Origin: Candidatus Woesearchaeota archaeon
Lineage (GTDB): Archaea; Nanobdellota; Nanobdellia; Woesearchaeales; JAFGLG01
Reading direction: 5' to 3'
Assembly (NCBI GenBank): GCA_016928155.1
Contig: JAFGLG010000005.1
Location: 1 to 64,000, forward strand
Length of the DNA stretch: 64,000 nt
Both the position numbers and the translations under genes were made by a program. Positions 955 to 19,305 of the stretch are shown one piece after another (positions within the stretch are counted from its first letter, which is position 1; each line of letters starts with the position of its first letter). The notes beneath the pieces are model-generated. The model was not told the DNA's origin, did not search any database, and saw only the letters and a list, made by a program, of their open reading frames with translations.

Positions 955-968
955 CCATGCATAGGAAG
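955..968 (+). repeat. 23S processing stem, 5' arm
   Basis: CCATGCATAGGAAG is the exact reverse complement of 4595-4608, so the two 14-nt arms bring the 23S ends together. Such stems are the usual bulge-helix-bulge processing substrate for pre-23S in archaea. Confidence 0.85.
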
Positions 969-2912
969 ATTCACGCTATTAGGTGGATGACTTGGCTCAA
1001 GAGCCGAAGAAGGGCGTGACAAGCAGCGATATGCTCAGGGTAAGCGCATGTAGCTTTTGATCCTGAGATACCCGAATGAGACTTCTCATTAGATCCGAAA
1101 GGATAGGGAACGCAGGGAATTGAAACATCTCAGTACCTGCAGGAAAAGAAATCAATTGAGATGCTGTCAGTAACAGCGAGCGAACACAGCAGAGGGCAAA
1201 CCGAATCTGGTGTGGTAACATACCAGGGATGTGGTGTTTGGACCATCTTTTAGTCCTTTTTCACGAGCAGAACGTGTCTGGAAAGACAGGCCCCAGAGGG
1301 TGAAAGCCCCGTAAGCAGAATGAAGAAGGATGTGGTGAGTTCCAGAGTACCGTCTACCGGAATCTAGGCGGGAATGCGGGGGACATCAACCTCCAACCCT
1401 AAATACTACTTGAGTCCGATAGCGAATAGTACCGTGAGGGAACGTTGAAAAGAACTCTTAACAGAGAGTGAAAAGAGTCTGAAACCTAATAGCTATGGTG
1501 AGGTACTGCTCTTAGGAGTTGTACCGTGCGTTTCGAATAACGTGCCAGGGAGTTTATGTTAGTGGCAAGGATAATCCGCAAAGGAGCATCCATAGGGAAA
1601 CCGATTTCCCGCAGTTCACGAGGGGAATGGTATGAAAGTGCCATGAGTCACTAGCATAAGATCCGAAACCGCTCGATCTAGCCGTGGGTAAGGTGAAATG
1701 AGGGTAAAACTTCATGGAGGCCTGCAGAGGTGCTACGGGCAAGTGCTCTTCTAACTTGCGGCTAGGGGTGAAAAGCCAATCGAGAGCGGCGATAGCTGGT
1801 TCCTGCCGAAGTAGGCCGCAGTCTAGTGATGGAGGAGACAGGACAAGAGGTAGAGATACGGATTTGGGATTTAGGCATCGAAAGGTGTCGGTTCCTTGTC
1901 CAACTCCGAATATTTGTCCGTCGTAGAATCCATTAAACGCGGGCCCTGGGGTAAACTTGGGTCCGGAAATGGGAACAACCAAGACCAGAGTTAAGGTCCC
2001 TAAATGTTCTTTAAGTGTCAAACTACAAGAGCGTTTACAACCAGAGACAGCGAGGAGGTTGGCTCAGAAGCAGCCATCCTTTAAAAAGTGCGTAACAGCT
2101 TACTTGTCAAGGTTGTAGGTCTCTAAAATGGACGGGGCTAAATGAACTACCGATACTTTGGATCATCGCAAGATGAATGGTAGGCAGGCGTGCTGTTAGG
2201 GCGAAAGCCAGTCCGGGAGGATTGGTGAACCTTTCAGTATTGAGGATCCTGGCGATAGTAGGATTTGAGTAGAGTGAGAAACTCTATCACCGAATGGGCA
2301 AGGGTTCCTTGACAATGCAAATCAGTCAAGGGTTAGTTGATCCTAACCGTAGTCCTAACTGGTCTAACGGGAAAGGGAAACCGGTTAATATTCCGGTACT
2401 ATCTGAGTATATGCGGCGACGCAAGTTCAATACCTGACGCTTCGGGATAAGTGGACATGGATCATCGTCCATGTTAATTAGGACAGGTCTGGGGAGTACT
2501 GTAATGGTGAGAACCAGAGCAAACCTTAGAACAGTGTCGCTTAAGCGGCATTCCACTGAGTCCTGGAGCCCATGAAAAGGGGATTGATCAGATCTCAGAT
2601 AATCATACCCAAAACCAACACAGGTGCCCCTAGGTGAGCAACCTCAGGTGTAAGGGTGTAATCTAATCGAGGGAACTCGGCAAATTGGCCCCCTGACTTC
2701 GGTATAAGGGGTCCCTGAATTTGTAACTACGCGTTGCGATTTCAGGGCGCAGTGGCTAGGTCGGTCCGACTGTTTAACAAAAACTTAGCATCCTGCTAAG
2801 CCGTAAGGCCTTGTACAGAATGCGACATCTGCCCAGTGCCAGCACTTCAAAGTCCTTTCCAAGGGACCTAAGAACTGGTAAACGGCGGGAGTAACTATAA
2901 CTCTCTTAAGGT

Positions 2913-3626
2913 GAACGAGTTGCCTTAGTAAAATCTGGCTAAATGCTGGAACGTCTGAGTATCCCAGACTACTCGTTTTCCACTGGTCACAGGTCGTTTT
3001 GACATTGACCTTAAATATGTGGAAAGCAGTGAAAATGTCATGGGTGCAGATAATCAGCAGGAAAGGCTAGATGCCCGATGGATTTCCGGATTTGTTGACG
3101 GAGAAGGTTGCTTTTATGTTGGGATCAATAAGATGCCGAATATGACAATTGGTTGGCAAGTGTTACCGGAGTTCCGGATTGTGCAGCACAAAAGAGATAT
3201 TGAGATTCTTAAAGGAATCCAAGAATATCTCGGATGTGGTGTGGTAAGAAGGAATCATGGTGACAGGTTTGAGCTCAGGGTGCGAGGGATTTATGATTTG
3301 AATCAAATCATCGTATTCTTTGACAAGAACCAGTTGCATACCAAGAAAAGGAATGACTTCTGCAAATTCAAAGAGATAGTAAGACTCATGAATGAAGGAA
3401 AGCATCTTACTGAACAAGGACTCAACATGATCGCAAGAATGGCTTCTCAGATGAACAGACAAATTAAGAATGGGTATCTAGAATCCTCAGAGACTATACG
3501 CCGGACCAACAATGCGGAATAGTTGGAAGATATAGTCCGACCCGTGCAGCGATGTACGGATGTAAGCAGAAATGCTTGCACGCCATCAACAGATGGTCAG
3601 TACCAAATCGGGAAGTAACAGAAGTG
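2913..3626 (+). other. Group I self-splicing intron in 23S rRNA
   Basis: The insertion interrupts the invariant 23S segment CTCTCTTAAGGT^AGCGAAATGCC; by alignment from memory this is E. coli position about 1931, next to helix 69. Group I rules hold: the 5' exon ends in U (2912) and the intron ends in G (3626). P1 is exon TAAGGT (2907-2912) with internal guide GCCTTA (2922-2927), giving a U-G pair at the splice site. P4 joins TGCTG (2944-2948) to CAGCA (3055-3059), the P and Q elements. P7 joins GACTA (3492-3496) to TAGTC (3533-3537), the R and S elements (CAGAGACTATA, AAGATATAGTCC). P8 is CCAAC (3506-3510)/GTTGG (3522-3526). I found no bulge-helix-bulge at these boundaries, so this is not the usual archaeal rRNA intron type. 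Confidence 0.9.
3019..3522 (+). CDS. LAGLIDADG homing endonuclease of the 23S group I intron
   Basis: Predicted site-specific DNA endonuclease that spreads its host intron by cutting intron-less 23S alleles at the insertion site. One LAGLIDADG helix is visible near residues 20-37 (ARWISGFVDGEGCFYVG), with FVDGEG carrying the catalytic Asp, so it should act as a homodimer. Length is 167 aa from GTG 3019, or 159 aa from the in-frame ATG at 3043. No strong ribosome binding site is seen, as expected for an intron-encoded gene. The reading frame runs through the ribozyme Q element and through R at its 3' end, and stops just before S, so RNA folding and protein coding share sequence. Confidence 0.9.
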   Translation: MESSENVMGADNQQERLDARWISGFVDGEGCFYVGINKMPNMTIGWQVLPEFRIVQHKRDIEILKGIQEYLGCGVVRRNHGDRFELRVRGIYDLNQIIVFFDKNQLHTKKRNDFCKFKEIVRLMNEGKHLTEQGLNMIARMASQMNRQIKNGYLESSETIRRTNNAE

Positions 3627-4594
3627 AGCGAAATGCCTTGCCGTTTGATTGACGGCCTGCATGAATGGTGTAACGAGATCGACACTGTCCCCGGTTGGAA
3701 GCCCCCGAACAACTGTCCTGGTGCAAAGGCCAGGGATTTCCAGTGGGAAGCGAAGACCCCGTGAAACTTTACTGTAGCTTGTTGTTGTGACGTAAGTTTT
3801 GTTGTGTAGGGTAGCTAGTAGTCGCCATGGTGCAGTCGCCAGATTGTACATAGACACAGCTGAAACACTAGCCTACGAAGTTTATGCCACTAACCTAGAA
3901 ATAGGGACATCAGCAGGCGGACAGTTTGGCTGGGGTGGCACGCTGTTGAAAATGTATCAATAGCGCCCAATGGTTGGCTCAGTCCGGTCAGAAATCGGAC
4001 GTGGAGTGCAAGAGCAAATGCCAGCCTGATTGGATCTGGGATAAGGACAGATCCAAAGACGAAAGTCTGGTCTAGCGAACCCCTGCAGCGCCTTGATGGC
4101 GCTTAGGGATGACCGAAAAGTTACTCCGGGGATAACAGAGTCGTCTCGCCCGAGAGCTCATATTGGGACAAGGAATTCTTGTTCCAAGAGTTTATCGACG
4201 GCGAGGCTTGCTACATCGATGTCGGCTCATCCTATCCTGGCGGTGCAGAAGCTGCCAAGGGTGGAGGTGTTCACTCATCAAAAGGGTTCGTGAGCTGGGT
4301 TCACAACGCTGTGAGGCAGTTGGTTTGATATCTACTGGAAATGCGTGATGTCTGAAGGGAAGGATCTTCTAGTACGAGAGGAACGAGGGTTCGAGGCCAC
4401 TGGTCTGACGGTTATCCGACAGGGTATGCCGTGCAGCTACGCCTTAAGCGATAAAAGCTGAAAGCATCTAAGCTTGAAGCGCACCCTGAAAAGAGACATC
4501 TTAGAACACGAGTAGAAGACTCGTTTGATGGAACCGGTGTGTAAGTGCGAAGCTTCGGCGACGTATTCAGCATGCGGTCCCCAATAGTTCATAC

Positions 4595-4608
4595 CTTCCT
4601 ATGCATGG
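4595..4608 (+). repeat. 23S processing stem, 3' arm
   Basis: CTTCCTATGCATGG pairs perfectly over 14 bp with 955-968, just outside the mature 3' end of 23S rRNA. Confidence 0.85.
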
Positions 4609-6855: not shown

Positions 6856-7458
6856 CTAACAACTAGAAAGGAGATCTCTCCTGAACATCCTTTTAGGAAT
6901 CATGACTGGCAGGTATCTATATTCTATCTTGACATGATCAAAAAAATCCTTGGCAAGCTCTATCTTTGACAAGGGAACGGCGATGACATTGTCAGAAATC
7001 CTTATGCCCTCAATATCCCTTATTACCCCTATGCTTGAACCCCTGCCATTCAAAGCATAATAAAACTTGGTCTTCTGCACATTTGACATTCCTTTTGTTG
7101 AATAGATAAAAAATCCCAGTGAAGAGAACCCATATCCATCAGCCAAATATCTGCCTGTAATCAGACTCATCCCCTCAAACAGGATCCCTTCCCTCGCATC
7201 AAAATCCGGAGATCTTATAGCCCCTTCAATCTTAGATATCAAAGTGATCCGATGATCAATGACTTCAAGTCTCTTCCTTAACACATATTCCAGGTCTTTG
7301 TCAACCTTCTGCTTGAAAACCAAGAGCATATCAATATCGGCTGGCTGTTTCTTTCCTCTCATCATTGAGCCAAACACCAATATATCAGATACTTGACTCT
7401 TATGCTCACTGAAGAAAACCCTGCAAACCTTCCTAAACTGAATGTCTTTTGATCTCAT
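6856..7458 (-). CDS. MNT-type nucleotidyltransferase (HEPN partner), cassette 1
   Basis: Minimal nucleotidyltransferase of 200 aa that in characterised MNT-HEPN pairs acts as antitoxin, in some cases by adding AMP to the HEPN RNase. The Pol-beta signature GSMMRG...DIDMLLVF lies near residues 30-48 with the two catalytic Asp residues; a third acidic position is not obvious. The C-terminal half (GFFIYSTKGM...) is specific to this subgroup. Its start overlaps the 3' end of the upstream HEPN gene by 26 nt, so the two are co-transcribed. Activity as a toxin-antitoxin pair is inferred from family and layout. Confidence 0.85.
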   Translation of the reverse strand: MRSKDIQFRKVCRVFFSEHKSQVSDILVFGSMMRGKKQPADIDMLLVFKQKVDKDLEYVLRKRLEVIDHRITLISKIEGAIRSPDFDAREGILFEGMSLITGRYLADGYGFSSLGFFIYSTKGMSNVQKTKFYYALNGRGSSIGVIRDIEGIRISDNVIAVPLSKIELAKDFFDHVKIEYRYLPVMIPKRMFRRDLLSSC

Positions 7459-7753
7459 CTTCCACCAGACTCCTTATCCTGCTGCAGGTAGGCTTGTCCA
7501 ATATCTTTGTATAAGTATCACGATAAGTAGAGAATTCCTTGTCAAGGATTGTGTAGCTCTCTGGGAAATATTTCTGGAGCATCCTGAAACGCTCGTTATG
7601 ATCCTTAGGGGACTGCCCTATCTTCTCGAGAAGGATAAAATCCTCAATAGCAAAAAGGGTCTTGAAATAGAGTATTGTCGCTGATGTGAAATCGCCAGCA
7701 CTGAACAATATATCTGCACTGCTCTTGAAAGTCAATATGTTCGTCTTCGCCAT
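7433..7753 (-). CDS. HEPN-domain protein, cassette 1
   Basis: Small all-helical protein of 106 aa, the first gene of an MNT-HEPN pair. It shows the HEPN-like pattern FTSATILYFKTLFAIEDFIL followed by PKDHNERFRMLQKYFP near residues 47-62, typical of archaeal MNT-associated HEPN proteins. A standard Rx4-6H catalytic motif is not evident, so it may be a non-nuclease partner or use other residues. The ATG at 7753 is chosen because a TATA box (GATATATATA on the minus strand, near 7780-7790) lies about 30 nt upstream; an upstream in-frame ATG at 7813 would precede that promoter. Confidence 0.75.
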   Translation of the reverse strand: MAKTNILTFKSSADILFSAGDFTSATILYFKTLFAIEDFILLEKIGQSPKDHNERFRMLQKYFPESYTILDKEFSTYRDTYTKILDKPTCSRIRSLVEDEIKRHSV

Positions 7754-7796
7754 CACGTTATTAATTATAACATCAAAGGAGTATATATATCTTTTG

Positions 7797-7816
7797 GTTA
7801 TATGTGATAACAAAAT
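7797..7816. repeat. 20-bp dyad repeat, copy 2
   Basis: GTTATATGTGATAACAAAAT differs from 6806-6825 by one base. It lies between the divergent HEPN (minus) and RHH (plus) genes, next to both TATA boxes, which suits a shared operator. Confidence 0.75.
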
Positions 7817-7854
7817 GGAAACATTTATATATTCATTGTATATACAATAGCTAT

Positions 7855-8124
7855 ATGGCTACTGAGATGATAACACTGAAGCTTGATAGGGAATTCTTAC
7901 GTGATATAGATGAGATGGTGAAGCACAGGCATTACCACAACAGGACAGAGTTCATACGAGAGGCATTACGTGAGAAGCTCACAGCAGAAGAGAAGGAGTA
8001 TATGCTCGCTCATCTGAAGAAGATACGCGGTTCTGCGAAGAAGAAAGTGACAAAGGAAGAGTATGAAAGAGTGAGAAAGACTGCAGCGGATGATCTGGCA
8101 AGGGAGAGAGGTTGGATCAAATAA
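7855..8124 (+). CDS. Ribbon-helix-helix (CopG/VapB-like) DNA-binding protein
   Basis: RHH transcription factor of 89 aa, the usual form of a VapB-type antitoxin. The beta strand EMITLKLDREFL (residues 4-15) is followed by two helices (DIDEMVKHRHYHNRTEFIREALREK). The basic C-terminal tail (KKIRGSAKKKVTKEEYERVRK) is where an antitoxin would bind its toxin. The ATG at 7855 is about 25-30 nt after a TATA box (CATTTATATATTC near 7822-7833), giving a leaderless message; an in-frame ATG at 7804 lies before the promoter. It is convergent with the PIN gene and overlaps its 3' end by 8 bp. Confidence 0.85.
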   Translation: MATEMITLKLDREFLRDIDEMVKHRHYHNRTEFIREALREKLTAEEKEYMLAHLKKIRGSAKKKVTKEEYERVRKTAADDLARERGWIK

Positions 8125-8527
8125 GGCTTTCTGGTTTCCTGTAATAAGTTATATCCCTTATTTTCTTAAAATGCTTATCACGAGCAATAAGCAGAGATGC
8201 ACTATCTCTGGAAAGTATCGCATGCAGGACATCATCTTTTGGTAAATTCCGTGACTTACTTATCTCTGTGGCCTCGGCATGCTGATCCAAATTAAAGAAA
8301 ATCAAATCAATAACTTTCTGGAATGGCCTAAACATTGAATTGAGGGTTTCATCAGAATAGAATCTCCTAAGTTCTTTGATCACTATATCTGAAGTCACAA
8401 TTCTTGAATCTTCTGACATGATCATAGAAATAAGCTTAGCTGCATACCTCCCTAATGGCTCTCCCCTGAAACCTTTCCGGTCCTCATACAGATCCATCCA
8501 GATGGAGGTGTCCAAGTAATATCTCAT
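8117..8527 (-). CDS. PIN-domain ribonuclease (VapC-like)
   Basis: Predicted Mg2+-dependent RNase of 136 aa, the usual VapC size. The acidic motifs are YLDTSIW at the N-terminus (Asp5), a mid Glu in IVIKELRRF, DDVLHA near residue 105 and ARDKHF near 120, so the active site looks intact. The start at 8527 gives MRYYLDTS, the standard beginning for the family; a longer frame to 8590 adds only unsupported residues. Unlike typical VapBC operons, the likely antitoxin is encoded tail-to-tail on the other strand. Confidence 0.88.
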   Translation of the reverse strand: MRYYLDTSIWMDLYEDRKGFRGEPLGRYAAKLISMIMSEDSRIVTSDIVIKELRRFYSDETLNSMFRPFQKVIDLIFFNLDQHAEATEISKSRNLPKDDVLHAILSRDSASLLIARDKHFKKIRDITYYRKPESLI

Positions 8528-8605
8528 CCTTAAATGCTTGATTTTGAGGTTTATTTGGGTTGAGGGGAAAAAGGCGGAAAGCTTTTGCATCTAAAGCCCA
8601 TTGCA

Positions 8606-9067
8606 TTAGTAATCGCTGAATAAGCCAACTGCCTTCTTATGATATTCCACGACACTCTTCTCTGAAAGACCGGCAATAAGATTATGTATCTTTGATATAA
8701 ACTCTTCCGCCACCCTTATGGAATTGACTGCCTCTTCCAAACCGACTGAGAAGTCAACATAATACTGCTTGTCGACCCTTTCTGATTTTGCTTTTTTTAT
8801 GTCACTTGAGTCAATGTCAAATATCTCCTTAAGAAATATTATCGACGCCATGTGATTCTCTGATTTTATGCCTATCCTGAAAAGCGCTGCAAGAAGACAA
8901 TGATACATTGAATAATAAGCAAGAGCGACTGAATCCTTCAGGTTGCCTATCTTAAGCAAAGCTTTGGCAGAAGAGAGTGATTCGTCTGATCTCAGCAGAT
9001 AAGCCTTCTTTATCTCATCGCTTGGCTCAACAGCCTGTAATCTCCCTTCTTTCGCCAGCTTAATCAA
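8606..9067 (-). CDS. HEPN-domain protein, cassette 2
   Basis: HEPN protein of 153 aa, second gene of its pair. Helical motifs are typical: YLLRSDESLSSAKALLKIGNLKDSV near residues 23-47 and LAYYSMYHCLLAALFRIG. The phrase KSENHMASI matches the KSxTHxG-like segment common in HEPN toxins. A clear C-terminal Rx4-6H is not obvious. The start codon lies within the last codons of the preceding MNT gene (8-nt overlap), so the genes are translationally coupled. Role as toxin or antitoxin partner is inferred. Confidence 0.82.
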   Translation of the reverse strand: MIKLAKEGRLQAVEPSDEIKKAYLLRSDESLSSAKALLKIGNLKDSVALAYYSMYHCLLAALFRIGIKSENHMASIIFLKEIFDIDSSDIKKAKSERVDKQYYVDFSVGLEEAVNSIRVAEEFISKIHNLIAGLSEKSVVEYHKKAVGLFSDY

Positions 9068-9605
9068 AAAATTTATTCTTTTCGTAATAAAGCTCTACCC
9101 CTTTAATTATGACATGATTCTTCTCAATCTCTTTGATAAGGATACTATCCTTATTATACATGCCGATCTTGACGCTTATCCTCGAGTCAATGCCCTGTAT
9201 TTCCTCTTTCAACCCATTATCTCCAGTCTCGATATAGACATCAATATCACTATCTTTCCTTGCAATGCCTTTTGCATATGATCCGAAAAGAATCGCCAGA
9301 CTAATCTTGTTGTTCTGCTTAATCGCTTCAATGACCCTCCTTAAAGATGGATATTTCCTAACAGTTTCAATAAGCTTCTGGCTCTCAACCTGATAGGCAG
9401 ATTGTTTGGCCTCCAATGATCTCTTAAGGAACACAACTTTGTTCTTCCCTTGCTGCCTGAAATCAACCACATTATTCTTGCTCAGGTCATTCACTTTCCT
9501 TGCAATAGATGTTTGGTTTGTATTGATCAATTTGGCTAGCCCCCTGATATGATTCTCTGACCTAAGCAATGCTTCAATGATTTTATTGTAAATATTTTGT
9601 GACAT
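9060..9605 (-). CDS. HTH-MNT nucleotidyltransferase/regulator, cassette 2
   Basis: 181 aa in two parts. Residues 1-65 form a winged-helix DNA-binding domain (LLRSENHIRGLAKLINTNQTSIARKVNDL). Residues about 95-140 hold the nucleotidyltransferase motif LFGSYAKG...SDIDVYIE with both Asp residues. It probably represses its own operon and modifies or neutralises the adjacent HEPN protein. The ATG at 9605 is immediately downstream of an inverted repeat and a TATA box (CATTTATATACT, minus strand, near 9627-9639); a longer frame to 9704 crosses the promoter and is rejected. Confidence 0.88.
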   Translation of the reverse strand: MSQNIYNKIIEALLRSENHIRGLAKLINTNQTSIARKVNDLSKNNVVDFRQQGKNKVVFLKRSLEAKQSAYQVESQKLIETVRKYPSLRRVIEAIKQNNKISLAILFGSYAKGIARKDSDIDVYIETGDNGLKEEIQGIDSRISVKIGMYNKDSILIKEIEKNHVIIKGVELYYEKNKFFD

Positions 9606-9625
9606 ATGTAACAATAATGTTACAT
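9606..9625. promoter_or_regulatory. Operator-like inverted repeat of cassette 2
   Basis: ATGTAAC-AATAAT-GTTACAT is a perfect 7-bp-arm dyad lying directly between the TATA box and the start codon. That is a repressor position, most simply bound by the HTH domain of the gene it precedes. Confidence 0.7.
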
Positions 9626-9773
9626 TAGTATATAAATGTTGCTGTTTTTTAGGTATCTGCATCAACAATCCTGACTGTTCCATGCAATCCACTATAGATT
9701 TCAAGGTTTATATCATTTTATGAGAAAAATCCGCAAGATATCTGATTAACGCAGGGAAGGGGGTTAAATATAA

Positions 9774-10277
9774 TCAAAGATTGATCACAAACTTGCAATC
9801 CTTGGGACCCTGGGCTGCACATTCAATCTCGTTACAATTCAAATCTTTATCTCTTAGAAAACTGAATAAGCCAGCTATTGCACCTGAGGTGATATTACAA
9901 ACAGGATCCTTGTTGTAACCTTGATGTGTTTTCTTATATTCTGCGGCAAGTGTCGAGTTTGGAATGTTCACAACTATAATCTTGCCACTACTCTCTGCAA
10001 TCTTGATATTGCCCAAACCCAAGCTTCCGAACAGCTCTTCAACAACAAAAGTCTGCTTTGCTTGTGAAGCACCAAGCTTACGAAAATAACTCTTGGTCAG
10101 CTCCTTCACATGCTCTTTTGTCAATGAATACACTTTTGCTTTATCCATCTCCGTCTGGAGGGCATAAAAGAAGGATGATCTGAACATGATATTTTCCTGA
10201 TCAAGGATATTTATCTTTCCATTCCCTATATTGAACTGCCTTGCCAGCATCAGCTTCTTCAGGAAAGCAGATAACAT
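9774..10277 (-). CDS. V4R-domain small-molecule-binding protein
   Basis: 167 aa with a V4R (4-vinyl-reductase) fold, a ligand-binding domain found in aromatic-compound sensors and in chlorophyll and methanogen proteins. The diagnostic C-terminus is present: ITSGAIAGLFSFL, then CNEIECAAQGPKDCKFVI with three Cys residues. The central KSYFRKLGASQAKQTFVVEELF is the N-terminal half of the domain. It is the last gene of the 18.0-9.8 kb cluster, 2 nt after the preceding gene. It probably senses a hydrophobic or aromatic ligand; the ligand is unknown. A further candidate start is the internal Met of MLARQFNIGNG. Confidence 0.78.
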   Translation of the reverse strand: MLSAFLKKLMLARQFNIGNGKINILDQENIMFRSSFFYALQTEMDKAKVYSLTKEHVKELTKSYFRKLGASQAKQTFVVEELFGSLGLGNIKIAESSGKIIVVNIPNSTLAAEYKKTHQGYNKDPVCNITSGAIAGLFSFLRDKDLNCNEIECAAQGPKDCKFVINL

Positions 10278-10279
10278 TA

Positions 10280-10747
10280 TTAACCCTCCTTTCCTTTCTT
10301 AATACTCTTCAAAGTCTCCCATTTTTTATAGGTCAAAGAGATATCATCTTCTGATTGAACTTCTATTGACTGGAGAAACATCTCTTTGATAGGTGTGTCT
10401 GGCAATGTCTCATATAAAGTCTGTCTAAGAGCTTCTGCAAAAGTCTTTGCATGCTCTTCCTGAAAAAAATGAGCATTCATAGCAACAGGAGCCTCAATCA
10501 TTATCTCAAAAAATCCTCCTTCCTCAAAGATAAAACGCTCATAAAACCTTCCCGCTATCTCATCAAATCCCAGATAGAGTATTTTCTTATTGAATCTCTG
10601 TTCCAGAACACCAATAAATTTCATCAATTCCTGTCTTGATCTCTCCTGCTCCTGCATTGATTCCTCAAGATTCTCATAAGAACGGAATGTGAAAGGCAGC
10701 ATCTCTTCAATATCGACTAATGGAACAAATATATGGTGAGTCTCCAT
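10280..10747 (-). CDS. Unknown protein paired with V4R protein
   Basis: 155 aa, not recognised. It is soluble and acidic, with a short charged helix (ENLEESMQEQERSRQELMKFI, about residues 25-45) and a later segment with alternating hydrophobics (GGFFEIMIEAPVAMNAHFF). There are no membrane segments and no cysteines. It has its own TATA box 24-32 nt upstream and is followed after 2 nt by the V4R gene, so the two are a transcription unit. The length and profile would suit a second sensory or adaptor domain, but this is a guess. Confidence 0.7.
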   Translation of the reverse strand: METHHIFVPLVDIEEMLPFTFRSYENLEESMQEQERSRQELMKFIGVLEQRFNKKILYLGFDEIAGRFYERFIFEEGGFFEIMIEAPVAMNAHFFQEEHAKTFAEALRQTLYETLPDTPIKEMFLQSIEVQSEDDISLTYKKWETLKSIKKGKEG

Positions 10748-10770
10748 AAAACAGAAAAATAGGATAATAA

Positions 10771-10779
10771 TTTATAAAG
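10771..10779 (-). promoter_or_regulatory. TATA box for the unknown/V4R pair
   Basis: On the minus strand CTTTATAAA lies 24-32 nt before the ATG at 10747, predicting a nearly leaderless transcript starting between the dehydrogenase-receiver gene and this pair. Confidence 0.6.
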
Positions 10780-10789
10780 CTTTCTAAGA

Positions 10790-12292
10790 CTAAGCTGTGC
10801 GGAACTGCGTCTCTTTGAGCAATTCCTTCACTCTGGTGTAAAGGTTTGCATCCTCATTTTCTGACTGCTTCTGGATGACACCATCAACAACTTTCACCCT
10901 TTTACCCGATCTGGTCACAAGTTCCTCGTTCGCCATCTTCAGTATATCATTGAACTGGGCTTGGCCAGTAAGAATCACCACCCGTGTATTCTGATACTGC
11001 TGCTTAATATGCCTGGCTACTTCAAGGCCATTTGTCCCGTGACCCAGGACATGATCAAATATCAATACATCTGGGCCGCCAATCAATCTGTGGCCAGTTG
11101 GGTCAAATTCTCCTGCATCATCGTCATATTTTAATGTATCAAGAGGATTTAGCTTGAACCCTCCATTCTCCCTCACAATATACATGGATGGTTCCTCTGA
11201 AAAACCAAAGAAAAGTTCATTATGCTCATTGATTTCTGGATCATCCAAAAACATCTCTGCCAATCTTTCAGCTTTGCCCTGAGCAACACCCGGTATGTCA
11301 TCTAGCAACAATATGTCTCTCCTCTGCTTTGTCGTATCAAACTCTTTCATGATAAGATCATAGATTTCACATATCCTTGCATAACTTCTCTCAAAATCAT
11401 CTTTCTCAGCATCTGTCAGAATATCATAATGAAAAACAACTTTTCCATCCTTCTTGCTGACCGGCAAGCCAATAACATGGTCCCTGAATTTAACCCCCTC
11501 AACAGTAATTGGATGGTTCTCTGCAAGGATGAAATCAATTGTCCTCATCAATCCATGGGCAGGGCCATACCAAGTCCCGCCTTGCATCACAGCAATCCTG
11601 GGTCCATCCATCATAGCCTTCTTCTGTATATCAACCATATCTTCATGAGTAAGCCCAATGTCTTCCAACGATTTTCCATTTATCCTTAATTGGGATTCTG
11701 GGAATACCTGAGTCGGCCCATGCTCACCAATGACCCTCGCTGCTACCTCCAACTCACTAGGATTAATACCATACCTCTTTGGATCTGATATCACATGCTT
11801 GACAATCTGCTCAACATACCTCCCTGTATCAAGCACAGGACCAAATGCATAGACCTGATGATCAGCAATCCCTGAATATCTCTGGAAATAAGTACATAAA
11901 GGATTCACTGGGTTTGTGACCATGACAACACTGCCTTCAAAGCCATTCTCGGCAGTCCTCTCTGCTATCCTCCTAATCATAGAGGGATCATATTTCAGTC
12001 CAACAAGCCTGATATCCTCCGGAGGATAGTCCTTGTAATTATAGCCCTCTTTTGCTGTGACTATGGTGATGCCATTCGGATTAATCTCCAGAACATCATC
12101 AACTCGCATTATCCTAGTTCCAGACCCATCAATGACAGCACCGGTCCTCAAATCATCTAGGGCAGCAAGCGATTCAGGCCTTGACCCTCTTGTATAAACA
12201 TTAATCTCGGGAGTCTTGCCAACCAACAAAGAAGCAAGTTCTCTACCAACATTACCAAAACCCACAATATTTATCGGAATCTGATATTTCAT
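10790..12292 (-). CDS. Malate/lactate dehydrogenase-like protein fused to a response-regulator receiver
   Basis: 500 aa in two domains. Residues 1-310 follow the LDH/MDH fold: Rossmann loop GFGNVG (11-16), NPVN (127-130), LDTGR with the substrate-binding Arg (154-158) and catalytic His in GEHG (189-192). Residues 325-500 are a CheY-like receiver: acidic pair Asp331-Asp332 (DILLLDD), phospho-acceptor Asp413 (PDVLIFDHVLG), Thr442 (VVILTGQ) and Lys475 (GVIQKQ). The stretch between the acidic pair and Asp413 is about 35 residues longer than in CheY. The start ATGA overlaps the stop of the LuxC-like gene. The likely reaction is NAD(P)-dependent oxidoreduction of a 2-oxo or 2-hydroxy acid, possibly gated by phosphorylation from the cluster's kinase. 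Domain calls are firm; the regulation is inference. Confidence 0.85.
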   Translation of the reverse strand: MKYQIPINIVGFGNVGRELASLLVGKTPEINVYTRGSRPESLAALDDLRTGAVIDGSGTRIMRVDDVLEINPNGITIVTAKEGYNYKDYPPEDIRLVGLKYDPSMIRRIAERTAENGFEGSVVMVTNPVNPLCTYFQRYSGIADHQVYAFGPVLDTGRYVEQIVKHVISDPKRYGINPSELEVAARVIGEHGPTQVFPESQLRINGKSLEDIGLTHEDMVDIQKKAMMDGPRIAVMQGGTWYGPAHGLMRTIDFILAENHPITVEGVKFRDHVIGLPVSKKDGKVVFHYDILTDAEKDDFERSYARICEIYDLIMKEFDTTKQRRDILLLDDIPGVAQGKAERLAEMFLDDPEINEHNELFFGFSEEPSMYIVRENGGFKLNPLDTLKYDDDAGEFDPTGHRLIGGPDVLIFDHVLGHGTNGLEVARHIKQQYQNTRVVILTGQAQFNDILKMANEELVTRSGKRVKVVDGVIQKQSENEDANLYTRVKELLKETQFRTA

Positions 12293-13650
12293 TTTCTCAT
12301 CACATCCAACAAGAAGTATGAACCCTGATGCGGCTTGAAAACATCCACACCCAAAGACATATTTAATTTAAGAGTATCATGAGGTATCCTTGATGATAGA
12401 TAATCCGCTAGCTCCCCTGTCCCAAACACACCCAAAGACAGAAGCTTATCGGTGCCCCTTACATGCATTGAATCCCTTATCTGCTTAACAGCTCCGATAT
12501 AAGTGCTATAAGGCAGAAGAGCTATCACGGGAAGAGAAACCTCTTGAGCCTCCAAAACCTTAGATGAAGGAAGCTCGTATATCATCAGATCGATATCATT
12601 CTTATCGGGAAAAATCCTACCAAAACGAGGACTCAATCCGGAATCCAAAATCCCTCTTAGCGCGGATTCATGAAACCTCGGCAAGTCTGTCTTTGGATTT
12701 GTTGGACTGCCATGCTTCAAACCCTTTGCTCGGTTTTCAAGAGCATCTACAAATTCATCATACACATCTTCATGGACATAGACAGCAGTCACTGCCCAGC
12801 ATTTATTCCCCTTATTCCTTGCAGAAGCATAAACTAGCTCATCAGCAGCCTGATCAATGTCAGCACCATTACCCACTATGGCAATACTATGACCAGAACC
12901 GTAACGCCTTGATGACCTTCCGATTGACAAATCCTTGATAACCCTATCCCCCACAACTGTACGAACAATCCGCTCATAAGCTGCATTTGAAGAGAATATT
13001 GAGAATCCCTTGCTGAATGCCAATGCCTCCTGAACCATCTCAGGCTTGCTTAGTGATGACCAACTGAGCTTCTGCGCAAGATAAGGCAATCCCATCTCCG
13101 CAATCTTCTCAAAAAGTATGTGAGCGGCAATATCATTCGCACTAGGCCTTATTATCGCATGAGCCCCACCAAGAATGCTCTGGCCCACAATGAAAGGTGT
13201 CTCATAGACCTCATCATTGCCAGCAGCGACAATGAAATAAGGGCTAACAAGAGATCTTTCAGAAAGATGAACACCATCTCGTTCAACAGAGAACCTGTCG
13301 ACATTTTCAACAAATCTCCCAAGATCATCAGCCCAAGTCCGCAGGGAGTCAGCAGTGCCTGAAAGATAGTTGACAGGAGTTCCATGCACAAGAGCCACAT
13401 TCTCCAGCAGACGCGAATCTGACAATGTCCTGCTGATCATCTCATGAACCAGTCCAATCCTGTCCTCAAGAGGCAGAAGATCAACCTTGTGACCTTCATT
13501 ATATGCAAATATCCTAGCTTCGACAAGTTCAGTTCTTCCTGAATCAGGAACAGTCGCAACAACACCCTTACCTGAGTAGTCTGTTACCTGCAAATCTACA
13601 CCTTCAGCTGAATCCTGCATCTCTCCCCTGACAAAATTCTGGAATCTCAT
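12289..13650 (-). CDS. LuxC-like acyl-CoA (acyl) reductase
   Basis: 453 aa, aldehyde-dehydrogenase superfamily, LuxC branch. LuxC reduces an activated acyl group to an aldehyde with NADPH. The catalytic Cys is Cys284 in NKGNKCWAVTAVYV, embedded in the expected DELVYASARNKGNKCW context. The nucleotide-binding part shows GQSILGGAHAIIRPSAND (157-174), and the C-terminal part has the oligomerisation segment KLNMSLGVDVFKP. It is 7 nt downstream of the LuxE/PaaK-like gene and overlaps the dehydrogenase-receiver gene by 4 nt, so the three are one transcription unit. The acyl substrate cannot be read from sequence. Luciferase genes are absent. Confidence 0.82.
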   Translation of the reverse strand: MRFQNFVRGEMQDSAEGVDLQVTDYSGKGVVATVPDSGRTELVEARIFAYNEGHKVDLLPLEDRIGLVHEMISRTLSDSRLLENVALVHGTPVNYLSGTADSLRTWADDLGRFVENVDRFSVERDGVHLSERSLVSPYFIVAAGNDEVYETPFIVGQSILGGAHAIIRPSANDIAAHILFEKIAEMGLPYLAQKLSWSSLSKPEMVQEALAFSKGFSIFSSNAAYERIVRTVVGDRVIKDLSIGRSSRRYGSGHSIAIVGNGADIDQAADELVYASARNKGNKCWAVTAVYVHEDVYDEFVDALENRAKGLKHGSPTNPKTDLPRFHESALRGILDSGLSPRFGRIFPDKNDIDLMIYELPSSKVLEAQEVSLPVIALLPYSTYIGAVKQIRDSMHVRGTDKLLSLGVFGTGELADYLSSRIPHDTLKLNMSLGVDVFKPHQGSYFLLDVMRK

Positions 13651-13657
13651 CTTGACC

Positions 13658-15067
13658 TCATTGCTCGGGCATCGAACAGCTGTCCGAGCCGGTTATCTGG
13701 AATAATGAAACACCTTTTAAGGTTGGCGCTTCAATCTTTTTCTGTGCAATATCATCTGGTGACCCATCAAAATCATAAGTCCTCTCAAGACCTTCCCCCT
13801 TTGCAGTGTACCTGCCACAACCACACTCATGGGGTGCTGAATAAGTTGTAAGGTTCATTGTTCCGCTGAATCTCAAGAGCTGTGTCGCTTGATTAGGTAT
13901 AATACCTGAACTCTTATGATATAATGATTTCAGTTGTGCAATTATCTCATCTGTATGCTGCGAAAGAATATCTGCACCATAGAATCTTCCAAGATAATCC
14001 CTGTCTGCACTGTCAATATTCTTCCCATCTGCCAATCTTCGCTCAGCCCTGACAGCAGCATCATAAAGGCCTTGAATTATAGGATCGACAACCCGCTGAC
14101 CGGCGATCCTGCTCACCAGGACCCTGCCTTTCTCCCCATCTGTCACATGCCTTTTTTTTTCGTCGACAACCTCAAAATATATATGGCCCTGCATGAGATG
14201 GAACCTCCCCGGATCATAAGGGCAATTTATTGTTGATGGGCCTGTATCAGTTGATCCACCAACATCCTTAACATAATCAATCCCTACATCATCCAATGCT
14301 CTGCGGATCCTGTATGTCAAGGGAGTGCTTGATGTAAGGATGAATCTGATATTATCACCAGTCAAGAAAGGATTCTCCGGATCATCATGCACCATGAGGT
14401 CCATGATCCCCTGTCCTTTTCCTTTGTATGATGATGGAGGTGAAACCAGACCATTGACACCTGCCTGTCTCATCAGCCTGAAAGCATCCTCATTTGTAAG
14501 ATTAGGAGGCCTTGGATGCGCGACAACACCAAAGTGCTTGTTGAGAGTGTCAGAGAAGCAAGGTGCAGCAATATGATCCCATGTATAATTGATGAAGACC
14601 TCCCCAGGCATCTGAAATCTGGGATGCTCTTCAACAAGAAATCTCGCAGTTGACAAGGAAATCCCGAGCCAATCACTGTTTGAGTATCTAATATTTGTGA
14701 AATCAGCTACACTCTTAATGGAGGTACCCCCCGTGTAACGCATGATGAGATGAATCTGCTGATCTATCGGTAAACCTGATTGACCAGAGTTGAGAGATGC
14801 ATGGTATCTCTCAGGCAAGAATGCATTTGAACCATATCCCCTGAACATCTTCTTTGTTGTCACAGGAAACTTCTCTTCAAAATCACCCAAAGACTTTATG
14901 TCATCCAAAGTCAATCCTGCTTCATTCATTATTGCCAATATAGCAGGGGTCCTGTGACGGACTGCAAAGTGCAACTGCTCAAGAATCCTTGCTTCAAGCC
15001 AGGATTGCCTCTCATCAGGGCTCAAGCGATCTAGAGCACCATCCCCAAGCGAATTTATCTCTGCCAT
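13658..15067 (-). CDS. LuxE/PaaK-like acyl-activating (AMP-forming) enzyme
   Basis: 469 aa, adenylate-forming superfamily, closest in feel to phenylacetate-CoA ligase (PaaK) and LuxE acyl-protein synthetase. The P-loop equivalent is RYTGGTSIKSV (near residue 110), the core has DVGGSTDTGPSTINC followed by FHLMQGHIYFEVVDE, and the C-terminal part has HECGCGRYT, as in PaaK-type CxCGRT. It should activate a carboxylic acid to an acyl-adenylate and pass it to CoA or to protein, giving the substrate of the LuxC-like reductase next door. It has its own TATA box. Substrate and acceptor are unknown. Confidence 0.8.
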   Translation of the reverse strand: MAEINSLGDGALDRLSPDERQSWLEARILEQLHFAVRHRTPAILAIMNEAGLTLDDIKSLGDFEEKFPVTTKKMFRGYGSNAFLPERYHASLNSGQSGLPIDQQIHLIMRYTGGTSIKSVADFTNIRYSNSDWLGISLSTARFLVEEHPRFQMPGEVFINYTWDHIAAPCFSDTLNKHFGVVAHPRPPNLTNEDAFRLMRQAGVNGLVSPPSSYKGKGQGIMDLMVHDDPENPFLTGDNIRFILTSSTPLTYRIRRALDDVGIDYVKDVGGSTDTGPSTINCPYDPGRFHLMQGHIYFEVVDEKKRHVTDGEKGRVLVSRIAGQRVVDPIIQGLYDAAVRAERRLADGKNIDSADRDYLGRFYGADILSQHTDEIIAQLKSLYHKSSGIIPNQATQLLRFSGTMNLTTYSAPHECGCGRYTAKGEGLERTYDFDGSPDDIAQKKIEAPTLKGVSLFQITGSDSCSMPEQ

Positions 15068-15092
15068 AATCTTATATTAGGGGAAGATTAAG

Positions 15093-15104
15093 TATTTATA
15101 AATA
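15093..15104 (-). promoter_or_regulatory. TATA box of the LuxE-like gene
   Basis: TATTTATAAATA lies 26-37 nt before the ATG at 15067 in the 63-nt gap after the FIST gene. The enzyme trio can therefore be transcribed separately from the sensor pair. Confidence 0.65.
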
Positions 15105-15130
15105 TTATGTATGTAATCACTTAGAAGTAA

Positions 15131-16444
15131 CTATTCTGTTAATAATTTATCATATATCACAAACAGCGAAACAGACTGATTAACTGTCTGGGCCTGGCGA
15201 TTCTGCACAGTCCCGATCTCACCAAAGGTATGCATACCCACCACTTTGAGAGCAGGATGGGCTTTCTTTGCAGCATCCACTTCTTTATTTATCTCCTGGC
15301 CAATGATCGCTTTTCTCCCACAACAATCAAAGACAAATGATATCGCTCCTTGGTCTAGAGTAGCATGTGCTTTCTCAGCTGCAGATATGATACCCTCCTT
15401 GATTGTGTTTATGGTCTTTTCCTGATCATAATCAACAATAGTGATTGCGGAATTCGGTGCAAGTCTCATGAGAACATTCATAGCATCATTATCCGGAAAC
15501 GGCATCCACTCTTTGATGTACAATGATCCATCAGTATCAATCACACCAATAGGGTGCTCAAAAGTGTACTTGAAAGGATCCTTCCTTACGATTTCTTTGT
15601 CAACATCCAATAATCTTGAGTATTCCACCAGTGCAGGTTTCCCATTCAATTCTTCAAGCTTATGCCCATCAGGAGACAGCTTGGTAGCAAGAGCAACCCT
15701 GTTAGACATCAGGTAGCCGTTTGCGAGATTTGTTGAGAAATGAAGATTTGAAATCACAAAAACAACCAAAGCTGCATGCCTCAAGACCTTACCATCTGCA
15801 AATAGGAATAGGTTAGTCTGGTTTTTGTGCAGGAATGTGTCAAGGTCAGAGCTGCAAGCCTGACCGACTATCGGAAGATGAGAACCTGTCACATTAAAAA
15901 TCCCCTCTAAGAATTCATTTTCCATACCCGGCACCATAACCCCATCTACAACCTCCACACCAGTAGAAAAATCGATGATAAAATAAGGAGGTGTCTTGAC
16001 AATCTCATTATAAGACTTTGTCTGGGCTCTCCTGAACTGTATATATGGATCAACAATCTTGTCTGAATGGACCTTATCAAGAGCCATCTTGATGGCTTCT
16101 TCACCTGATCTCTGCGGGTTCTCTTTATAGTCTTCCTTGTATCCGACACCAAAATGCATATGATCTGTGTCAAGTACAATAGCTTGAATCGCTTTTTGGA
16201 TGTATCCATCCTTATTATTGAACTGGCTGTCAGCAGAAGTGCCAACCCAATCCTTACCGAAATGAGCATTGGCTACTTCTGCAACCTCATAAGGATTGTA
16301 GCTATCATGCACAAACAGGAAAGCAAATCTTGGTTTCTTGATGTCGCCATCAGCCATAGAATTCTTGATCGCTTCCTCTACGCATTTCTTAGTATCCTCT
16401 TGAGAACTTAATCCAACACCCACTTTTATATGCTTGCCTTGCAT
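15131..16444 (-). CDS. FIST-domain sensory protein
   Basis: 437 aa with FIST-N followed by FIST-C, a sensory module thought to bind small ligands such as amino acids and often encoded beside signal-transduction proteins. FIST-N features: KVGVGLSSQEDT at the N-terminus, FVHDSYNPYEVAEVANAHF and WVGTSADSQF. FIST-C ends with HPALKVVGMHTFGEIGTVQ followed by NQSVSLFVIYD, the standard FIST closing motif. There is no signal peptide or membrane segment, so it is cytoplasmic. It starts 26 nt after the histidine kinase stop, which suggests that it feeds ligand information to that kinase. Confidence 0.87.
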   Translation of the reverse strand: MQGKHIKVGVGLSSQEDTKKCVEEAIKNSMADGDIKKPRFAFLFVHDSYNPYEVAEVANAHFGKDWVGTSADSQFNNKDGYIQKAIQAIVLDTDHMHFGVGYKEDYKENPQRSGEEAIKMALDKVHSDKIVDPYIQFRRAQTKSYNEIVKTPPYFIIDFSTGVEVVDGVMVPGMENEFLEGIFNVTGSHLPIVGQACSSDLDTFLHKNQTNLFLFADGKVLRHAALVVFVISNLHFSTNLANGYLMSNRVALATKLSPDGHKLEELNGKPALVEYSRLLDVDKEIVRKDPFKYTFEHPIGVIDTDGSLYIKEWMPFPDNDAMNVLMRLAPNSAITIVDYDQEKTINTIKEGIISAAEKAHATLDQGAISFVFDCCGRKAIIGQEINKEVDAAKKAHPALKVVGMHTFGEIGTVQNRQAQTVNQSVSLFVIYDKLLTE

Positions 16445-16470
16445 AATGTTAGTTATATTATGATAGAACT

Positions 16471-18012
16471 TTAATAAGTTTTCGCTTTCTCGAATGAAAT
16501 GGTGAATGTTGTGTACTCTCCAAGCCTTGACTCCAATGAGATTTGACCATTCATACGCTCGATGTTGCTCTTCACAGTAGATAAACCCATTCCATGGATG
16601 CCAGGCTCATCCCTTGTGGTGAATCTTGGCTCAAAAACTCTCTGTTGTATGTCTTCAGGAATACCCGTGCCATAATCCTTGAATTCGAAATAAATCCTGT
16701 CATCGCACTCATATGTCCTGATGTCAATCCTCCTTGAATCAGGTCTTGCAAACTGGAAAGCGTTCTCAAAAAGATTCTTGAGCACAAAATTGAACAGGGC
16801 GGGATTCACCATCGCAACTTGAGATGTTGCATCAGGCAATGGATTGCCTTGTTCGTCAATTACAGAATTCCCTTCCCGGTCATAAAAATGGAACTCAAAT
16901 CCCGCTTTCCTCAGCTTGAAATCATAATATCTTGCCATCTTGATAACAAATGGATTGACATCATAGGAAGCCATCTCATCCCTCTGCTGGGCATAATCTT
17001 CCATCTGATTCAACTGCTGAGCTATCATGCCTGCACCATGCAGGGCAGATTCCAGATCCTGGGGGGGGATTGCTTTCCCTCTTTCCAACCTTCTCTGCAT
17101 CTTCTTCAACCTATCTACAACAACAGTCAGAGGACTTCTCAACTCATGGGCAATGGTCGATGCAAAATCACCATAAGCAGCAGAAGACAACAAAGCAACT
17201 CTCTCATTCTGCAGTTCATCCCTCTGCCTGCCAGTCTCCTCCAAATCAGCGTAGGCTTGTCTTAAAGCTTCATTCCTTCTGTAAAGTTCATTGCCGAAGA
17301 TTGCAAATTTTATTATCCCATCAACCTTACCTGCTATCCTAAGCACTCGTTTCATCTTCTCCTCTGGAGGGGGTAAATGGTAATCAATATCTATCGGAGA
17401 ATCCAGAGATATCATTCCAATAGGTTCTCTGACCCCCTGAACAAATCTGAACAACCCTATATGTAATTGATAGAAATATTCATCAAATGTTAAATTTGGG
17501 TTTTTTGGTTTTATCCCAACTTCAAAAGTATTCTTGGAACGATGGAAAGTGCCTTCTGGCAAGATTCCTTTAGATTCTAATTGTAACATGTATGACTCAT
17601 CATTCAAACAATAGGTATATTCCAAATCTCCAGTAAATAGCCCAACAGGAGGGCCTGGTAATCTGCCTGCTCGAATTTCTTTTAGATCGGCAAACATATT
17701 TTTAACATAGTCTAAATACTCTTGCTCATAATTGACTCCTGTGATCCATTGCAGAAATCTGGTACCCCCAAACAGATCACCCATTTTCCCTGGTGTTATC
17801 AAAGTGTTATTAGGATCCTTTATCAAAGCTATCTCACAACATCTGAATCCTAGAAACTTGCTCATTGAATGTAAAATTGTCTGAAGTGAATCAATTAGAT
17901 AATCCGGACCAATGGAATCAACATCAGATACTTTATCTGCCAGCTCGGTCTCTAGTTGTTCCATTATAGAAGCATAGTCAATAACTTTAGCAGTATCTTG
18001 AAAATCTGACAT
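16471..18012 (-). CDS. Soluble histidine kinase with GAF-like sensor domain
   Basis: 513 aa without membrane segments. Residues about 35-235 form a GAF-like sensory region (SLQTILHSMSKFLGFRCCEIALIK ... PIGMISLDSPIDID). A coiled-coil linker (243-275) leads to the dimerisation domain with phospho-acceptor His289 in STIAHELRSPLTVV. The ATPase domain has the N box KNLFENAFQFA, G1 KDYGTGIPE, F-box VFEPRFTT and G2 GIHGMGLSTVKSNI. All catalytic boxes look intact. The only receiver domain in the window is fused to the dehydrogenase five genes into the same cluster, the natural candidate target. A TATA box (18035-18046) precedes it. Confidence 0.92.
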   Translation of the reverse strand: MSDFQDTAKVIDYASIMEQLETELADKVSDVDSIGPDYLIDSLQTILHSMSKFLGFRCCEIALIKDPNNTLITPGKMGDLFGGTRFLQWITGVNYEQEYLDYVKNMFADLKEIRAGRLPGPPVGLFTGDLEYTYCLNDESYMLQLESKGILPEGTFHRSKNTFEVGIKPKNPNLTFDEYFYQLHIGLFRFVQGVREPIGMISLDSPIDIDYHLPPPEEKMKRVLRIAGKVDGIIKFAIFGNELYRRNEALRQAYADLEETGRQRDELQNERVALLSSAAYGDFASTIAHELRSPLTVVVDRLKKMQRRLERGKAIPPQDLESALHGAGMIAQQLNQMEDYAQQRDEMASYDVNPFVIKMARYYDFKLRKAGFEFHFYDREGNSVIDEQGNPLPDATSQVAMVNPALFNFVLKNLFENAFQFARPDSRRIDIRTYECDDRIYFEFKDYGTGIPEDIQQRVFEPRFTTRDEPGIHGMGLSTVKSNIERMNGQISLESRLGEYTTFTISFEKAKTY

Positions 18013-18034: not shown

Positions 18035-18046
18035 ATTTATAAAATT
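18035..18046 (-). promoter_or_regulatory. TATA box of the histidine kinase gene
   Basis: The minus-strand AT core AATTTTATAAAT lies 23-34 nt before the ATG at 18012, giving a leaderless or nearly leaderless transcript at the head of the sensory cluster. Confidence 0.6.
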
Positions 18047-18379: not shown

Positions 18380-18913
18380 ATGTTAAAAAAAAGTAACAGA
18401 CAGAAGCTCTTGAACTTATTCTTCACAGATCCTTCTCCACAATACCAATTAAGAGAGATATGCAGAAAAATCAGATTAAGCCCAAAATCTGTCAAGAATT
18501 ATCTAGAAGAATTAAGCAAAGAAGGACTCATAAGGATCACAAAGCACCGAGTGCATGAATATCCTTTGTATCAAGCAAACAGAGATGATCCTTTGTTCAG
18601 ATTATTAAAAAGAAATGAGCTTATCCTTGAAATCAAAGAGACAGGATTGCTGGATCTCCTGAATGACAGATATATGCCAGATGTAATAATCCTGTTCGGA
18701 TCAGCATCAAGAGGAGAGGATACAAATGAAAGTGATATTGATCTCTTCCTCCAATGCAAAGGTGACAAAACAGAATTCAGGTCAGCAGAACACCAACTGA
18801 ACCGGAAAATCAACCTATTCTTCTCAGAAGACTTTAATAAGCTCAGCAGCGAACTCAAGAACAACATAATCAATGGAATAAAATTGAGAGGATATCTGAA
18901 AATATGGGGATAA
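18380..18913 (+). CDS. Winged-helix MNT nucleotidyltransferase, cassette 3
   Basis: 177 aa. Residues 1-70 are a winged helix (NLFFTDPSPQYQLREICRKI, SPKSVKNYLEELSKEGLI). The nucleotidyltransferase motif ILFGSASRGEDTNESDIDLF near residues 104-123 carries the catalytic Gly-Ser and the DxD pair. It has the same architecture as cassette 2 but in the opposite order (MNT first there as well, yet with no close sequence likeness). It overlaps the HEPN start by 10 nt and has its own TATA box and dyad. Likely an autoregulating antitoxin partner. Confidence 0.88.
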   Translation: MLKKSNRQKLLNLFFTDPSPQYQLREICRKIRLSPKSVKNYLEELSKEGLIRITKHRVHEYPLYQANRDDPLFRLLKRNELILEIKETGLLDLLNDRYMPDVIILFGSASRGEDTNESDIDLFLQCKGDKTEFRSAEHQLNRKINLFFSEDFNKLSSELKNNIINGIKLRGYLKIWG

Positions 18914-19305
18914 TCAGCATAACACCAGACAAAGAGAGATGCAGATCAATAATGAGAATGGCAGAGACAAGCCTGAACATGATAAATGAAATTGATCACC
19001 TAAAATATCCCTCCAATGTGATAAAAGAATATTATGAGATCATCAGAGAGCTCTTGAGTGTAATCATGCTGCTTGAGGGCAAGAAAGCAGTAGGTGAAGA
19101 GGCCCATAAGAGACTGATAGAACACATAAGATCAATGAACATATTCCCTGAGAATGAGATCCAGATGATTGATGATCTGAGAATCCTGAGGAATCGCATT
19201 GCATATGAGGGATTCTTCATAAGACCAGATTATCTGGAAAGAAATCATCCAATGATAAAACAAATAATCAACAGACAAAATGAGATTATACAGAAGCAGA
19301 TATAG
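18904..19305 (+). CDS. HEPN-domain protein, cassette 3
   Basis: 133 aa, all helical. The C-terminal motif DDLRILRNRIAYEGFF (about 98-113) corresponds to the catalytic HEPN segment RNxxxH, but here the histidine position is Tyr (RNRIAYEG). This is common in archaeal HEPN proteins and may weaken or alter RNase activity. Helix EYYEIIRELLSVIMLLEGKKA is typical of the family. Translationally coupled to the MNT gene. Confidence 0.82.
   Translation: MGIISITPDKERCRSIMRMAETSLNMINEIDHLKYPSNVIKEYYEIIRELLSVIMLLEGKKAVGEEAHKRLIEHIRSMNIFPENEIQMIDDLRILRNRIAYEGFFIRPDYLERNHPMIKQIINRQNEIIQKQI

Follow-up and report, generated by a model that had tools for sequence, protein, structure and literature searches.

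A putative LuxE/LuxC-type acyl-reduction module set among ligand sensors and phosphorelay proteins in a small-genome archaeon

What would an archaeon with a small genome do with genes resembling LuxE and LuxC, and why do these genes stand among sensory proteins? This question is raised by a stretch of 64,000 nucleotides from a Candidatus Woesearchaeota archaeon (contig JAFGLG010000005.1, positions 1 to 64,000; hereafter the window), which carries archaeal small- and large-subunit rRNA genes and belongs to a 1.48 Mb genome (99.7% complete) of an order characterized by small genomes, which points to DPANN as the probable affiliation. Our preferred answer, held with some reservation, is that the locus encodes a LuxE/LuxC-type acyl-reduction module that is transferable and is joined to a sensory control unit composed of ligand-binding proteins and a phosphorelay. 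The original prediction, made from the letters of the window, placed seven same-strand genes at 9774-18012, and our analysis recovered all seven open reading frames (ORFs) there on the minus strand, adjoining one another with intergenic gaps of -4 to +63 bp. In order of transcription, the features are:

18035..18043, minus strand: TATA box (TTTATAAAT), 23 nt ahead of the histidine kinase start codon
16471..18012, minus strand: histidine kinase (HK), cytoplasmic, 513 amino acids, with an N-terminal sensor domain, HisKA (Pfam, 27.0 bits) and HATPase_c (72.1 bits)
15131..16444, minus strand: FIST protein, 437 amino acids, putative soluble ligand sensor (PF08495, 68.6 bits; PF10442, FIST_C, 56.4 bits)
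15094..15102, minus strand: TATA box (TTTATAAAT), 27 nt ahead of the ligase start codon
13658..15067, minus strand: predicted acyl-activating ligase of LuxE-like design, 469 amino acids, with weak AMP-binding and PaaK-like matches and Cys464
12289..13650, minus strand: LuxC-like acyl reductase of the aldehyde dehydrogenase (ALDH) superfamily, 453 amino acids, nucleophile Cys284 (Aldedh, 65.5 bits; LuxC, 22.8 bits)
10790..12292, minus strand: fusion of a lactate/malate dehydrogenase (LDH/MDH)-like 2-hydroxyacid dehydrogenase (residues ~1-316) to a receiver (~325-500), identified by PDB and NCBIfam LDH/MDH matches and by receiver alignment
10770..10778, minus strand: TATA box (TTTATAAAT), 23 nt ahead of the P2 start codon
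10280..10747, minus strand: P2, 155 amino acids, with the motif GGFxExxxExPxxMNAHF and no convincing Pfam match
9774..10277, minus strand: V4R-domain protein, 167 amino acids, putative ligand-binding (PF02830, 52.8 bits; cut-off 31)

The short gaps and internal TATA boxes described earlier were likewise recovered: the window contains 14 copies of TTTATAAAT where 0.64 would be expected, and since copies lie 23-27 nt before the start codons of the HK, the ligase and P2, the genes likely form three co-oriented transcription units (HK-FIST, ligase-ALDH-LDH/receiver and P2-V4R). As for the proposed gene families, the HK, FIST, ALDH/LuxC, dehydrogenase-receiver and V4R assignments held, as did the description of P2 as unfamiliar; the label LuxE-like could not be justified from the window by itself and was established through relatives, as described below. 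The earlier reading that the locus is not a bioluminescence operon was borne out, given that a luciferase (PF00296) search of the whole genome yielded no match, whereas the control was positive in 10/14 genomes; on this ground we ruled out a luciferase pathway.

To what extent is this arrangement conserved? Searches with the ligase alone, covering the order, IMG/VR and plasmids, recovered no close orthologue; in another family of the same order they returned two weak matches, each adjoining a FIST gene. The contigs of these two matches carry V4R, FIST, ligase, ALDH and P2, with identities to the window proteins of 53-55% for P2 and 24-32% for the others. A query combining several motifs, run on genome contigs, hit ordinary ALDHs and nothing else, by way of a single generic motif. 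A P2 profile search found convincing members in 17/353 genomes of the order and further members in other orders of the class, and a FIST-ligase-ALDH-P2-V4R core recurs in many further families of archaea within this class. The order FIST-ligase-ALDH on a single strand is present in at least 13 loci, usually with P2 and V4R and often with KaiC-like ATPases. P2 and FIST occur in the same genome 14 times against 1.2 expected (hypergeometric p 7e-16), a significance that is overstated because the genomes are related and not independent, although the loci nonetheless span many families. In addition, the distances among FIST, ligase and ALDH proteins are correlated across seven loci (Mantel r 0.86-0.94), as expected of a module inherited or transferred jointly.

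The conserved core comprises five genes only (FIST, ligase, ALDH, P2 and V4R), and the HK and enzyme-receiver genes are an add-on found in four loci. The expectation that all seven genes would co-occur in relatives thus stands for the core, linked in many families, and fails for the two add-on genes; the outcome named as refuting, genes unlinked in relatives, did not materialize, as the neighborhoods favored linkage instead. FIST genes of five further genomes lie beside or near HK genes without a ligase/ALDH pair, and FIST alone is therefore no marker of the module.

Evidence for the LuxE-like nature of the ligase comes from these relatives. The window ligase itself matches the AMP-binding model weakly (17.7 bits, short of the cut-off), and its nearest PDB relatives are PaaK-like ligases. 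It has a P-loop-like YTGGTS motif, Cys464 near its C-terminus, an insertion of ~70 amino acids, and no ANL C-terminal domain. In locus L157 (genome G088), the ligase slot is occupied by a canonical LuxE (PF04443, 129.6 bits) and the ALDH slot by LuxC (PF05893, 123.8 bits), with V4R, FIST and P2 as neighbors, as in the window. This LuxE aligns over its length with the LuxE of the solved LuxC-LuxE complex 7xc6 (8.8e-31), including the C-terminal Cys (RGCAL/KGCSL), and the G088 LuxC matches the LuxC partner chain of that complex. The remaining slot ligases are PaaK-like and highly divergent; the L131 orthologue reaches 17.8 bits with PF04443, under the cut-off of 24.9.

In LuxE, the conserved C-terminal Cys is the acyl acceptor. 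A C-terminal Cys lies 2-18 residues from the end in 15/15 slot ligases, the window included (12 aligned, among them the canonical LuxE, plus three more); with Cys at 1.1% in the protein body, ~20% of proteins would by chance have one among their final 20 residues. Cys464 of the window aligns with the corresponding residue of the 11 other aligned ligases, canonical LuxE among them, and this is one of very few invariant columns in the 12-ligase alignment. The residue is absent from an unclassified 402-amino-acid protein at the equivalent position in L163 and from a second ligase-like ORF of L167 that lies outside the slot.

The reductase points in the same direction. In the window it is closer to general ALDHs than to LuxC as judged from its domain scores, with weak LuxC membership (PF05893, cut-off 21). 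The nucleophile Cys is kept in 14/14 aligned reductases, and the general-base Glu is missing in 12 of the 14, the window included, while three ordinary ALDHs used as a control all retain it. The Glu is kept in two reductases, those of L160 and L186, and both of these clusters are without a ligase gene. That the hydrolytic Glu is lost where a ligase is present speaks for these enzymes acting as thioester reductases. The proposal of acid activation followed by reduction to an aldehyde is therefore strengthened by the canonical LuxE and LuxC found in the same slots of a relative and by the invariant LuxE-type Cys tail.

The window dehydrogenase scores 89.9 bits with an NCBIfam malate dehydrogenase model (below its cut-off), aligns with LDH/MDH structures and retains the LDH-family motifs LDTGR and GEHG, which contain the Asp, Arg and His. 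An alignment with receivers of the same genome and of relatives shows DD, D, T and K conserved in the fused receiver. Four loci (the window, L167, L231 and L160) have an enzyme-receiver fusion directly after the ALDH gene and an HK gene in the cluster, the latter nearby on the opposite strand in L167, L231 and L160. The L167 fusion is LDH-like and homologous to that of the window (blastp 2e-5), L231 encodes a ketopantoate reductase (ApbA)-receiver, and L160 a KASIII-receiver. The HK N-terminal sensor domain is homologous between the window and L231 (phmmer 2e-8, 12-sequence set) despite their different enzymes, which supports the idea that the HK and the enzyme-receiver are partners; the L231 sensor domain also matches a paralogue in the window's own genome (L122). 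The dehydrogenase-receiver step of the original prediction is refined to an enzyme-receiver slot that lies outside the core and is filled in four loci, with a varying type of enzyme. The sensor domains said to frame the enzymes are indeed there: FIST, V4R and the HK sensor domain flank the ligase and ALDH, and the first two belong to the conserved core.

From gene order, families, active-site residues, recurrence and composition we infer an acyl transfer chain, an HK-receiver pairing, ligand sensing, a product and a purpose, as follows. The ligase would adenylate a carboxylic acid and shift the acyl group to its own C-terminal Cys, as in LuxE; the acyl group would then move to the ALDH nucleophile Cys and be reduced with NAD(P)H to an aldehyde, as in LuxC. 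The LDH/MDH-like dehydrogenase may act on the same metabolite or a linked one, at a 2-hydroxy/2-oxo group, and the neighboring HK would set its activity by phosphorylating the fused receiver. FIST, V4R and the HK sensor domain are predicted to bind small molecules and to gate the kinase, the enzymes or both, in a manner comparable to NosP-NahK, with P2 as a putative conserved partner. The net outcome would be that an acyl-derived small molecule is made or turned over under ligand control. Of these steps, sequence backs acid activation, transfer of the acyl group and its reduction, to which some lineages add a regulated enzyme that reduces carbonyls or catalyses condensation.

Several observations weigh against this scheme. 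The window ligase is divergent, gave no PF04443 (LuxE) match at E<=0.1 and is without the Asp at the usual R-x-x-G-D position; together with the weak AMP-binding match, this makes its adenylation activity uncertain. The HK and enzyme-receiver genes are missing from most relatives, the window receiver contains an insertion and scores 26.3 bits in Pfam (cut-off 30.2), and the L167 receiver is recognized by alignment only. Finally, single-sequence AlphaFold models were poor for the dehydrogenase-receiver (pLDDT 34.9) and for P2 (pLDDT 53.5).

A more specific proposal, which we regard as tentative, is that the locus is a self-contained chemical-signalling island, in which the LuxE/LuxC-type pair would produce an acyl-derived signal (an aldehyde or a hydroxycarbonyl), this signal or a partner molecule would be perceived by FIST and V4R, and the HK would directly phosphorylate the biosynthetic enzyme via its fused receiver, the enzyme being swapped (LDH-like, ketopantoate reductase or KASIII) and the wiring kept. 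This idea is attractive because the sensors belong to the core, and the module may accordingly make or tune a chemical signal.

Clearly less probable than our preferred answer is a regulated fermentative or detoxifying metabolism without a signal, in which a short-chain acid, aldehyde and hydroxyacid would be interconverted for energy or redox balance and the sensors would tune flux. LDH/MDH and ketopantoate reductase both reduce carbonyls with NAD(P)H, and phosphotransacetylase and acetate kinase genes lie downstream of the module on the same strand in three genomes of family f6. However, these two genes are confined to that family, and we rejected them as core members for this reason; moreover, LuxE-type activation uses ATP, which ill suits energy gain, no catabolic gene is as constant as V4R, FIST and P2, and the KASIII-receiver suits biosynthesis better.

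It is improbable that the module serves surface modification, its acyl or aldehyde product being attached to a glycan or protein of the cell surface. Such a role has been proposed for the luxE and luxC genes of bacterial flagellin glycosylation islands (PMC4875605, PMC7874193), which also form a pair without luciferase; those genes, however, sit with glycosyltransferase and ACP genes, whereas no glycosyltransferase or sugar-biosynthesis gene was recognized beside the module in the loci inspected, where some neighbors were unscanned, and sensors make up part of the core instead.

We give still less credence to the enzymes being degenerate and serving as an acyl-binding sensor scaffold rather than as catalysts. 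Although the window ligase without its usual Asp is poorly recognized by family models, the ligase C-terminal Cys and P-loop-like motif, the ALDH Cys and the dehydrogenase Asp, Arg and His are all retained, and relatives have full LuxE and LuxC. Lastly, a chance gathering of unrelated genes in an acquired island, to which low GC content at third codon positions (GC3) and toxin-antitoxin flanks might point, is very improbable and already contradicted by the recurrence of this core and of the FIST-ligase-ALDH order across many families, in further orders too, and by correlated divergence.

The transferable character assigned to the acyl-reduction module in our preferred reading draws on composition and setting. 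Mean GC3 is 0.403 for the seven module genes and 0.562 for the 32 other genes of the window (Mann-Whitney 1.3e-7), and the flanks have a mean of 0.44 against 0.56 elsewhere. The flanking features are:

6856..9704, strand not assigned: left flank, toxin-antitoxin-like genes comprising nucleotidyltransferase/HEPN pairs and an RHH/PIN pair (Pfam)
18380..19305, plus strand: right flank, a nucleotidyltransferase gene and a downstream small gene in a HEPN-like position (no Pfam match)

Because of its low GC3, its toxin-antitoxin-like flanks of similarly low GC3 and its patchy distribution, the module is apparently an acquired, transferable island; patchy distribution and low GC3 also led us to reject a housekeeping operon.

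How does the module compare with known systems? It shares with the fatty acid reductase complex LuxC/LuxE of Photorhabdus (PDB 7xc6) a ligase adjoining a Cys-nucleophile reductase, a C-terminal Cys tail on the ligase and a reductase without the general-base Glu. In contrast to that complex, it is archaeal, lacks luciferase, has no recognized luxD-like gene and is set among FIST, V4R, P2, HK and enzyme-receiver genes, and the LuxE model fails to recognize the divergent window ligase. A second parallel is the NosP-NahK-NarR system, where the FIST protein NosP acts via the kinase NahK (PMC8846402), providing a precedent for a FIST-HK pair with adjoining genes and the same FIST/FIST_C architecture. 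The window FIST protein satisfies the FIST domain models and scores 53.8 bits against the NosP NCBIfam equivalog (cut-off 450); the output here is a metabolic enzyme-receiver, whereas that of the NosP system is a cyclic di-GMP enzyme.

Archaeal response regulators with enzymatic outputs have been described, among them KaiC-REC, BcsA-like GT-REC, thioredoxin reductase and PPDK (PMC5847659), and resemble the present fusions in joining a receiver to a metabolic enzyme. The passage of that census on such outputs names no LDH/MDH, ketopantoate reductase or KASIII, and its main text makes no mention of a dehydrogenase; compared with the regulators given there, several unrelated enzymes here occupy one conserved slot. 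The parts of the module are thus of known kinds, and we did not find the combination, the P2 family or the swapped enzyme-receiver fusions in one slot described in the open-licence papers searched, an absence that is weak evidence of novelty.

The module would place enzymes alongside ligand sensors and a new protein family within a single transferable unit, and it offers several natural fusions where phosphorylation could directly switch a metabolic enzyme. Archaea are generally thought to be without bacterial-type fatty-acid membranes, and the recurrence of a LuxE/LuxC-type acid reductase in archaea with small genomes therefore raises the question of which acyl substrate it uses.

By sequence comparison, P2 is a new protein family: Pfam gave nothing convincing for 16 members, and no relative was found in the PDB. 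A DUF2226 match of P2 (12.7 bits) was dropped, being unsupported by any other member. Paralogues of ~225 amino acids with a C-terminal hydrophobic, membrane-like region are encoded in L161 (8847-9524), L163 (4536-5192), L167 (9315-9989), L168 (6147-6848) and L169 (5414-6118).

A second FIST context was observed in five loci of the order, where the FIST gene has an HK, small receiver-like proteins and KaiC-like proteins encoded nearby, but no ligase or ALDH. In five other loci, a small protein that is conserved and weakly similar to DUF2304 is encoded directly before or near the KaiC-like ATPase beside the module. L220 (4081-5583, genome G075) encodes, next to FIST and HK genes, a related fusion in which a receiver is joined to a domain resembling N-acyl amino acid synthase (FeeM) (25.7 bits; cut-off 27); it may be a synthase of acyl signals controlled by a phosphorelay.

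The window's own genome has a rich signalling set for its size, with eight receiver and nine HATPase matches, some of which latter may be topoisomerases. In L122 (6201-10090, contig C15), an HK with a related sensor domain adjoins a receiver-GAF-HD (HD-GYP-like) protein, which is unusual for a small archaeal genome, and L123 (2247-4910, contig C7) encodes an 887-amino-acid protein that combines an HD domain with a class III nucleotide cyclase domain. Finally, a LAGLIDADG homing endonuclease (97.4 bits) is encoded at 3019-3522 of the window within the archaeal 23S rRNA gene (959-4604). This gene exceeds the length of the Rfam model by ~650 nt, and the endonuclease is intron-encoded.

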